Assembly (NCBI GenBank): GCA_017991935.1
Contig: JAGOPP010000001.1
Location: forward strand, 185,992 to 249,991
Direction: 5' to 3'
Length of the DNA: 64,000 nucleotides
Source: Oscillospiraceae bacterium
GTDB taxonomy: Bacteria > Bacillota > Clostridia > Oscillospirales > Ruminococcaceae
The first letter of the stretch is position 1, and each line of letters starts with the position of its first letter. The translations under genes and the position numbers were made by a program. The notes beneath the pieces are model-generated. The model made no database searches and was not told the DNA's origin. It worked only from the letters and a program-made list of their open reading frames with translations. Shown here piece by piece: positions 3,631-15,238 of this stretch.

Positions 3631-3641
3631 GAATTCCGCGG

Positions 3642-3707
3642 CCGGGAAGGAAAGCCCCGCTCGGCGGGGCGAGGAAGGCCAAGCGTCTTTTAGGCGCGCC
3701 TTCCCGG
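3642..3707 (+). promoter_or_regulatory. Structured intercistronic RNA between eutA and eutB
   Basis: An outer stem CCGGGAAGG (3642-3650) with CCTTCCCGG (3699-3707) encloses a perfect 7-bp hairpin GCCCCGC-TCG-GCGGGGC (3654-3670) and a second smaller stem near 3683-3697, giving a branched fold. There is no clean U-tract after it, so a processing or mRNA-stability element is as likely as an attenuator. The same spacer holds AAAGACG (3730-3736) complementary to CGTCTTT (3777-3783). It also holds a Shine-Dalgarno-like GGAAGGAGG with no start codon after it. Confidence 0.55.
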
Positions 3708-3833
3708 TACATATTTTAAAAAAGAATAAAAAGACGTAAAGTCGTTACCAAATAAGGTTGCAGGAAGGAGGAAAACCGTCTTTCTAAATCCGGGGAAATT
3801 CGGCATTTAAATTCAACAAAGGAGTGAACACTT

Positions 3834-12886: not shown

Positions 12887-13165
12887 ATGAGAATAGGAGT
12901 CGTAATAGGCAGTGTCTGGGCGACCAGAAAGGAACCGAAGCTCGAGGGGCTTAAGATGCTGGTTGTAAAACCGCTCAACTATAAGCTCACCGGGAACGAA
13001 ACGCGTGAACCTTATGTGGCGGCTGACGTCGTGGATGCCGGTATCGGCGACAAAGTTCTGCTGGTGACCGGGAACCCCGCTCGCTATGCCGTTGGGGACC
13101 CCCGCGTGCCTGTTGACGCCGCGATCGTTGGTGTTATCGATGACGTAGATATTCAGGACCAGTGA
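12887..13165 (+). CDS. eutN: EutN, pentameric BMC vertex protein
   Basis: EutN/CcmL proteins form pentamers that close the twelve corners of the shell. The 92-aa product has the beta-barrel landmarks IGVVIGSVWATRKEPKLEGLKMLVVKPLNY, the DVVDAGIGDKVLLVTGNPARYAV core and a terminal DAAIVGVIDDVDI. ATG 12887 follows ACGGAGG. One pentamer-forming gene is enough for a closed shell together with EutS, EutL, EutM and the EutK-like protein. Confidence 0.94.
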   Translation: MRIGVVIGSVWATRKEPKLEGLKMLVVKPLNYKLTGNETREPYVAADVVDAGIGDKVLLVTGNPARYAVGDPRVPVDAAIVGVIDDVDIQDQ

Positions 13166-13184
13166 CGGCCTTGAATGCACCTTA

Positions 13185-13420
13185 AAAATTCCTGTTCCAA
13201 AAACTATTTCTCTTATGGAGCAGGTACCCAGTCATTTAAGGGAACCTGACCGGAGCGTCAGGGAATACATAGTATTTATCTGCGGGCATTGCGGCTAAGG
13301 CAGGAATCTGTCTGAGAGCCCACAGACGGAGCTGATGTGATGCAGCTGTTTTGCTGCTTCCCCGACAGGAAGGTCAGCCGACTCCCTTTAATGAATATAG
13401 TTTGAGAAAACTAATTTTTT
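13185..13420 (+). ncRNA. Structured 5' leader with terminator upstream of eutH (candidate riboswitch or attenuator)
   Basis: A 269-bp spacer is packed with helices. They are CCTGTTCC/GGAGCAGG (13191-13224), CCTGAC-CGGAGC-GTCAGG (13245-13262), TCTGTCTG/CAGACGGA (13307-13330), GCAGC/GCTGC (13342-13357) and CTTCC-CCGACA-GGAAG (13357-13372). GGAGCTGA (13328-13335) can pair with TCAGC and TCC around 13374-13385 to enclose the last two. It ends in an intrinsic terminator just before the eutH Shine-Dalgarno, the layout of a conditional attenuator. The 5' part (CAGGTACC followed by TTTAAGGGAA, 13221-13244) resembles the start of cobalamin riboswitches, but the CCGCCACTG-type block and 3' block are not recognisable. 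The structure is seen; the ligand is unknown. Confidence 0.6.
13398..13420 (+). terminator. Intrinsic terminator in the eutH leader
   Basis: TAGTTT-GAGA-AAACTA followed by ATTTTTT, ending right before AGGAGGT, the eutH ribosome-binding site. Terminating or reading through here would decide eutH and eutQ expression. Confidence 0.75.
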
Positions 13421-13434
13421 AGGAGGTCAGTATA

Positions 13435-14655
13435 ATGGATTTTAGCGAATTAGTTGCTGCGTGGAATCCGAGTGTCTTAACCGAGACGTTTGGCAGCTGG
13501 GTATCCAATATCGCCATCAATACGGTCGTCGTCATGATCATGGCGATCTTCATGGTTGTCGGCGCTGTTGACAGAATTTGCGGAAACAAGCACGGCTACG
13601 GAACCGAGTGGGAAAACGGAATCAACGCGATGGGCGGACTGGCCATGGCTATGGCCGGCGTCGTCGCCGTTGCTCCGCTGCTCGCCATGGTTCTGAAACC
13701 GATCATTGGACCGATCTACGGCCTTGTTGGCGCCGACCCGGCGATGTTCGCCACCACCCTGCTCGCCTGCGATATGGGCGGCTACCCGCTCGCCCTCCAG
13801 CTTGCTGGAAGTGCTGAAGTTGGCCAGTACGCCGGCATCATCCTTGGCAGTATGATGGGCCCGACCATCGTCTTCACGATCCCGGTCGCGCTTGGCATCA
13901 TCAACCCGCTTGACAGACCGTTCCTTGGCGCCGGTACCCTTGTCGGTATGGTCACCATCCCGATCGGCTGCGTCGTCGGTGGTCTTGTCATGAACACCAC
14001 CCAGTATAAGATCGGCATCGGCACGATCCTTGTCAACGTGATCCCGGTTATCGTTATTGCCGGCCTGATCGCTGCTGGACTTTGGTTTGCCCCGGCCAAG
14101 ATGATTGCTGGATTCAACGCTTTCGGCAACGGCGTGACGATTTTCATCACTGCCGTTACCGCTATCGCTATCTTTGAGTACAACACTGGCATCCGCTTCC
14201 CGCTCTTCGATACCATGGTCGATTATGACGGTGGTTCCCCGCTGGAAAGTGGTCTTCTCGTCTGCGGCCAGATCGCGATTACCTTGGCCGGCGCCTATCC
14301 GATGGTTAAGTTCGTTTCCGATACTTTCGGAAAAGCGCTTGCCAAAGTTGGTACCGCCCTTGGCATGAACGGTGCCGGCGCTACTGGTATGGTTGCGACT
14401 CTCGCGAATAACATCGCGATGTTCAACATCCTTTCCGACATGAACCCGCAGGGCAAACTGCTGAACTGCGCGTTCGCCGTCTCCGCCGCTTTCGTCTTCG
14501 GTGACCACCTTGGCTTCACCGGCGCGAACAGCCCTGAGATGATCTTCCCGATGATCGCCGGCAAACTTACCGCCGGTGTCACCGCCCTGATCCTCGGCAA
14601 ATGGATGGCTCCGGCCCTTCTGAAGAAGATTCCGGAAGAGTCCATGAACCAGTAA
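13435..14655 (+). CDS. eutH: EutH, ethanolamine permease
   Basis: EutH is an inner-membrane protein that imports ethanolamine when it is scarce or protonated. The 406-aa product is highly hydrophobic with about ten predicted membrane segments and family landmarks such as MGGLAMAMAGVVAVAPLLA, TTLLACDMGGYPLA, an ILGSMMGPTIVFTIPVALG helix and FVFGDHLGFTGANSPEM. ATG 13435 follows TAGGAGGT, directly after the leader terminator, so it may be controlled separately from the shell genes upstream. Confidence 0.95.
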   Translation: MDFSELVAAWNPSVLTETFGSWVSNIAINTVVVMIMAIFMVVGAVDRICGNKHGYGTEWENGINAMGGLAMAMAGVVAVAPLLAMVLKPIIGPIYGLVGADPAMFATTLLACDMGGYPLALQLAGSAEVGQYAGIILGSMMGPTIVFTIPVALGIINPLDRPFLGAGTLVGMVTIPIGCVVGGLVMNTTQYKIGIGTILVNVIPVIVIAGLIAAGLWFAPAKMIAGFNAFGNGVTIFITAVTAIAIFEYNTGIRFPLFDTMVDYDGGSPLESGLLVCGQIAITLAGAYPMVKFVSDTFGKALAKVGTALGMNGAGATGMVATLANNIAMFNILSDMNPQGKLLNCAFAVSAAFVFGDHLGFTGANSPEMIFPMIAGKLTAGVTALILGKWMAPALLKKIPEESMNQ

Positions 14656-14667
14656 GCTTTACGGATT

Positions 14668-14733
14668 TTTTTCCCGGGCAAATTTGCGGTTGCGCGGGAA
14701 ACCTGGAGCGCCTATTGCCGCGATAGGCGCTCC
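14668..14733 (+). repeat. Two hairpins between eutH and eutQ
   Basis: TTTCCCG pairs with CGGGAAA across about 14671-14702. It is followed by a perfect 11-bp stem GGAGCGCCTAT-TGCCGCG-ATAGGCGCTCC (14705-14733). The second has no U-tract, so read-through into eutQ is expected. Such stems often protect the 3' end of an upstream message. Confidence 0.6.
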
Positions 14734-14785
14734 ACCTCACAAAAAATCTTACATCAAAATTTCTGAAGATGAAAGGCGAAATCCA

Positions 14786-15238
14786 ATGAATATCAGTGAA
14801 GAATTGATCAAAGAGATTGTCGCCAAAGTCTGCCAAAACCTCGATACTGAAAACAAAATGCCGTTTGATCGCAAGATGCTCAGCAACGGCATGTATTGTG
14901 TCAAGACCGATACCGTCAAATGCGAAGCTTTCCCGTTTGACATCGGCGACGCGCAGGACGGCACGTCTCTTATGGATTTAGCCACCATTGAAGAGACCCC
15001 GAGAATCAGTATCGGCGTTATGGAAATGGATCACTGCGAATTCCCGTGGACGCTGAACTACGATGAAGCTGAGTATATCATTGAGGGCAATCTGACCCTT
15101 AAAACCGCTGTCGGTAACCTTGAAACCCATGCGGGTGATACCAACTACATCCCGAAAGGCACCTCGCTTCGCTTTTCCACCCCGGATCATTGCAGATTTA
15201 TGTATGTCTGCTATCCGGCAGACTGGTTCAATCAATAA
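14786..15238 (+). CDS. eutQ: EutQ, cupin protein of ethanolamine utilisation
   Basis: EutQ is a cupin-fold protein; acetate-kinase activity has been reported for the Salmonella homologue, which would turn acetyl-phosphate into ATP. The 150-aa product has the cupin barrel with VMEMDHCEFPWTLNYDEAEYIIEGNL and HAGDTNYIPKGTS. The N-terminal ISEELIKEIVAKVCQNL is an amphipathic helix like the encapsulation peptides elsewhere in the locus. ATG 14786 is preferred over upstream in-frame codons because it follows AAAGGCGA and the extension covers the two hairpins. It is the last gene of the operon. Confidence 0.9.
   Translation: MNISEELIKEIVAKVCQNLDTENKMPFDRKMLSNGMYCVKTDTVKCEAFPFDIGDAQDGTSLMDLATIEETPRISIGVMEMDHCEFPWTLNYDEAEYIIEGNLTLKTAVGNLETHAGDTNYIPKGTSLRFSTPDHCRFMYVCYPADWFNQ

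Follow-up and report, generated by a model that had tools for sequence, protein, structure and literature searches.

How is ethanolamine use controlled in a bacterium that carries the pathway and shows no sign of an ANTAR-type regulator? The known forms of control rely on EutR, on EutV/EutW together with the EutX RNA, or on EatR (PMC5821096). The genome from which the window was taken (the window being the whole 64-kb stretch of DNA analysed here) holds a full eut microcompartment operon with no ANTAR regulator detected, and a structured RNA that matches no Rfam family lies at its permease gene. If this RNA responds to a compound of the pathway, it would represent a further way of controlling eut genes and a narrow, recent riboswitch, and the fast change of its centre within a single genus would show how such RNAs alter.

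A structured leader inside the eut operon

Protein family searches place the eut operon on the + strand of the window, in the order BMC shell gene (about 1294), eutP, eutA, eutB, eutC, shell genes, acetaldehyde dehydrogenase, eutT, PTAC, eutJ, a TIGR02536 gene, eutN, the leader, eutH, eutQ and an amidohydrolase. The best match of the window eutN is CcmL-like, and its homologue at L020, another locus of the genus, is Pfam EutN_CcmL; eutH scores 449.6 bits with its NCBIfam model, whose cut-off is 482. The order eutN-RNA-eutH-eutQ-amidohydrolase is conserved between the window and L020. A scan of window positions 12900-13500 found no promoter-like site, so the leader is probably transcribed from upstream within the operon, as part of a transcript started there. 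A near-consensus sigma-70 promoter (TTTACA, 17 bases, TATAAT; 1195-1223), found by eye and not by scan, precedes the first eut shell gene and is likely, from its sequence, to be the operon promoter. The gap of about 200 bases between eutA and eutB (3631-3833) contains G+C-rich inverted repeats (GGGAAGG...CCTTCCC, CCCCGCTCGGCGGGG).

The gap that holds the leader runs from the eutN stop at 13165 to the eutH ATG at 13435. It folds at -87.4 kcal/mol, against -72.6 +/- 4.7 kcal/mol for dinucleotide shuffles (z -3.1), and none of the 200 shuffles equalled it. The initial annotation had described a structured leader before eutH, with five or more helices and one long-range pairing; both are present in the fold of this gap, and eight other genomes have homologous leaders in this position, one of them covered only in part. 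It had also placed the element at 13185-13420, where it does lie, the homologous element being slightly wider (13175-13426). The features are as follows.

12887..13165, + strand: eutN, directly upstream of the leader (NCBIfam EutN match weak: 42.9 bits, cut-off 118)
13175..13426, + strand: whole leader, homologous to the RNA of the genus (cmsearch, model R1 built without the window)
13180..13186, + strand: segment a (CCTTAAA), 5' strand of P1, pairing with 13235-13241
13191..13224, + strand: P2 hairpin CCTGTTCCA / TGGAGCAGG, then a conserved TA (3 double-change pairs, 8 leaders)
13232..13243, + strand: segment b (TCATTTAAGGGA), from the sequence
13246..13251, + strand: 5' strand of P3, CTGACC, pairing with GGTCAG at 13372-13377
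13252..13371, + strand: central rod, branched in the window and not alignable with the core of the genus
13372..13377, + strand: 3' strand of P3, GGTCAG (window fold)
13383..13394, + strand: segment c (TCCCTTTAATGA), pairing with b over 11 bp with one U-U mismatch
13398..13420, + strand: weak AU-rich hairpin TAGTTT-GAGA-AAACTA with T tract (-3.6 kcal/mol; absent from the terminator scan)
13421..13426, + strand: Shine-Dalgarno sequence AGGAGG of eutH, from the sequence
13435..14655, + strand: eutH, ethanolamine permease, the putatively regulated gene (NCBIfam EutH subfamily, E 8.7e-135)
14684..15238, + strand: eutQ, second gene downstream (Pfam EutQ, E 2.4e-35)

The minimum-energy fold of the window pairs segment a with the T tract and AGG. 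This pairing was set aside because a C in the T tract of three relatives (L018, L019, L022) breaks it.

Conservation and covariation within the genus

The 50 bases just upstream of eutH first turned up elsewhere in the genus in a DNA search, and full leaders were then retrieved via eutH relatives in GTDB genomes. Eight further genomes of the genus carry the element with eutN immediately on one side and eutH on the other (leaders L014, L015, L016, L018, L019, L020 and L022, and L021 in part, which starts at a contig end), and it stands before eutH in 9/9 genomes with a readable upstream stretch of the operon eutH (L021 partly). Three more genomes match at the end of eutH only (two of them at a contig end), which leaves their leader out of the count; the last three genomes of the genus gave no eutH match. 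Genome RGIG4554 (G006) carries a second, solo eutH (L017, 2995-4227) without the leader RNA. This copy has a MerR-type gene upstream on the opposite strand, a response regulator downstream and a short leader of its own, in which ATATAGTTTGA still stands before the ribosome-binding site. Among the matches listed, the eutH genes of other genera have only a short upstream gap.

Model R1, from which the window was left out, scores the window leader at 46.1 bits (E 5.4e-8, model positions 1-214), and this match is the only one in the 64-kb window and in its genome. The 5' domain and the 3' block carry the match, and with filters off they are hit separately (28.4 and 25.7 bits). Scoring 394 genomes of the order and 391 of the class, with stricter filters that could miss very divergent members, gave nothing else at E <= 0.02, and the sole match outside the genus among the 150 nearest genomes is weak (E 0.036), with no eut gene around it. 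A model of P1-P2 gave no significant match near eutH in other genera and, at other genes within the genus, weak matches only (E 0.04 or higher); the three that were read looked terminator-like or due to chance. DNA similarity matches at L009, L010, L012, L013, L118 and L119 were judged from their sequence to be chance. The conserved 3' motif gave five matches in viral contigs, all without eutH and likewise due to chance. In these searches the leader is restricted to the genus.

In the relatives, P1 (CCUUGAA/UUCAAGG) and P2 (CCUGUUUU/AAAACAGG) are followed by a long rod (P3-P7) whose core is almost invariant (AAUACAUAUUUG..., GAUAAGCGGCCUYC...GGAGUAUC, GUAUUUGGU); 3' of the rod come a conserved CUUUUAUGAAUAUAGUUUGAG and the Shine-Dalgarno sequence. 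Covariation across homologues, which the initial annotation had proposed to examine, was found: 11/57 base pairs in the relatives, mainly in P3 and P5, show double changes that keep the pair, against 4.3 +/- 1.6 in shuffles and 2-6 in slid structures, counts that are indicative as the leader sequences are few and related. Across the relatives 93.5% of pair cells are kept. With the window included, P1-P2 shows 4 double-change pairs against 0.7: in the window the a-b pair at columns 10-66 turns from G-C into A-U, and P2 carries two further double changes. Seven leaders each fold better than 57-60 of 60 shuffles. Moreover, RNAalifold, run unguided on the relatives, predicts the same rod and replaces P1 by a helix between segments b and c (UCAU..AAGG/CCUU..AUGA) that extends it. 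By its conservation and covariation, the leader is a real, conserved cis-regulatory RNA of a known general kind.

The window leader itself departs from its relatives at the centre. Its P3 takes the position of their covarying P3 with a fully replaced sequence, and in the central rod, whose interior is longer, the model aligns 128 nt against 90 positions. Mapping the rod by hand onto the core of the genus was abandoned, the common part being only a vague GCGG bulge.

A proposed switch at the eutH Shine-Dalgarno sequence

How might such a leader act on eutH? Positions 13235-13241 within segment b are common to P1, where they pair with segment a, and to the b-c helix. We propose, in a reading for which we see as much chance of being right as of being wrong, that the leader of the genus is a cis-acting RNA inside the eut operon in which alternative a-b and b-c pairing controls the translation of eutH, and with it eutQ. 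Segment b would have two partners, of which it could take only one at a time: a on its upstream side, which closes the P1-P2 domain, and c on its downstream side, which lengthens the P3 rod. With a-b formed, segment c would be available to mask the AGGAGG of eutH, keeping translation low; with b-c formed, the Shine-Dalgarno sequence would be more open. Some metabolite or protein would set the balance. What we infer here is that the two pairings compete as the switch itself, that control acts on translation, and that such a signal tips the balance.

Folding predictions speak both for and against this proposal. When P1 was forced, the mean unpaired probability of the Shine-Dalgarno sequence was 0.01-0.20 in 8/8 leaders tested, and with b-c forced it was 0.13-0.56, hardly more open in L015; in L015 and L019, the sequence is hardly or not at all more open with b-c forced than in the unforced fold. 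For the window the balance tips towards b-c by about 4 kcal/mol, and segment c is predicted to cover part of the Shine-Dalgarno sequence in the other state. One or two compensatory changes speak for each helix. For a-b it is the replacement of G-C by A-U in the window; for b-c, pair 62-177 goes from GC to UA in L015, and extra pairs in L018 and L019 and the 11 bp of the window add to this. Covering of the Shine-Dalgarno sequence by the 3' block alone was equalled or exceeded by 90/200 shuffles in the window, thus not going beyond chance, and by 8-56/200 in the relatives, where it is at best marginal, which leaves the switch plausible only.

Translational riboswitches and orphan candidate RNAs from comparative genomics (e.g. 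PMC2864571, PMC7266159) resemble the leader in having a covarying structure directly before an operon gene and alternative helices near the ribosome-binding site. The leader differs from them in its lack of an Rfam 15 match, in its very narrow distribution and in the replaced central rod of the window.

Other readings of the leader

The signal might be a small molecule bound by the RNA itself. The leader would then be a metabolite-binding riboswitch of a new class, with P1-P2 as the candidate binding site and ethanolamine or another pathway compound as a conceivable ligand, a reading that we hold possible and on balance doubtful. P1-P2 and its joining strands (AAAA, UCCUG, CAGGUA, GUCAUU) are conserved in all full-length members, window included, and in the other members the loops of the core are almost constant while P3, which flanks them, varies freely. 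However, a single gene in a single genus was found with the element upstream, and the window does not retain the core: its central rod is unlike the nearly invariant core of the others, which argues against one shared ligand-binding core there. The more specific version, that P1-P2 senses ethanolamine or its immediate product, sets translation of the permease and replaces EutV/EutW in the genus, is in our view quite improbable.

A dedicated regulatory protein or an sRNA might instead bind the leader, for example at the nearly invariant ATGAATATAGTTTGAG (window 13391-13406). This block is kept in 9/9 genomes (with a 2-base insertion in L015), beyond what base pairing alone seems to require, although its alternative pairings could also keep it; no regulator gene adjoins the element and no ANTAR protein was found in the window genome, and we consider a site of this kind unlikely. 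Within the same block lies a 4-codon reading frame (ATG AAT ATA GTT TGA, MNIV), which is probably not coding, judging from the insertion in L015 and from the sequence before it, where no ribosome-binding site is seen.

The initial annotation had ended the leader with an intrinsic terminator, and transcription attenuation could follow if the last hairpin and T tract terminate and upstream pairing prevents it. Indeed, six T follow the hairpin in the window, and the stem is roughly kept in the relatives. However, the stem is AU-rich (13398-13413, with one G-C pair in the window and almost none in general) and weak (-3.6 to -3.9 kcal/mol), which makes a terminator less likely; the terminator scan lists it for neither the window nor L020, and the T tract abuts the Shine-Dalgarno sequence and is interrupted by a C in the same three relatives that break the pairing of segment a. 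The terminator is not convincing, and attenuation seems to us decidedly unlikely. We give the same low credence to an element of mRNA processing or stability that adjusts eutH-eutQ levels against those of the upstream shell genes: the position inside the operon, the long rod and the lack of a promoter-like site in front would suit it, but it would not need the conserved alternative pairing or the conserved 5' domain. An RNA thermometer is a possible reading for which nothing positive speaks.

Of the known classes, those that control eut genes in other Firmicutes (PMC5821096, PMC3369931) had been considered for this leader, and a divergent cobalamin riboswitch or an ANTAR (EutV) target is now the least credible reading by far. 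EutV/ANTAR dual-hairpin antitermination leaders likewise lie before eut genes, and their targets consist of two adjacent hairpins with six-base loops carrying A at position 1 and G at position 4 (PMC3369931). The first reading of the sequence saw no loop with this pattern, and the leader shows neither a convincing terminator nor, in particular, the overlapping intrinsic terminator expected of such a target. ANTAR domain PF03861 was found in neither the window genome (G000) nor the L020 genome, and was found in the 6 others of the 8 genomes in the same search. EutV/ANTAR control is thus unlikely here. As read from the translated sequence, one ANTAR match (L137) adjoins a EutW-like kinase and one (L136) a glutamine synthetase. 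The L019 genome (G887) has two ANTAR-type response regulators and a EutW-like kinase (L137), apparently EutV/EutW, which the window genome lacks.

Adenosylcobalamin riboswitches (RF00174; EutX/Rli55 in the eut loci of Enterococcus and Listeria) are likewise structured RNAs in a eut locus, whereas the leader has no cobalamin core and stands directly at the Shine-Dalgarno sequence of eutH. With Rfam 15, no family reached the gathering score anywhere in the window, so the leader stays unassigned before eutH-eutQ, as first described. A loose search of the leader (E up to 10) returned meaningless matches only, with no cobalamin signal, and gives no support to the likeness that had been seen in GGTACC and TTTAAGGGAA. 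The search of the leader for a tRNA-like element found none, and a likeness to a circularly permuted TPP riboswitch (GAACCTGA..GGGAA, CTGAGA), confined to the window and absent in the relatives, gave no Rfam signal and was rejected. As far as the model can tell, a cobalamin riboswitch is excluded for the leader; the same model detects L073 and three ordinary riboswitches elsewhere in the window genome, and copies occur in 15/15 genomes of the genus. The L073 riboswitch (2744-2927, 103 bits) lies downstream of eutH on a Flavonifractor contig.
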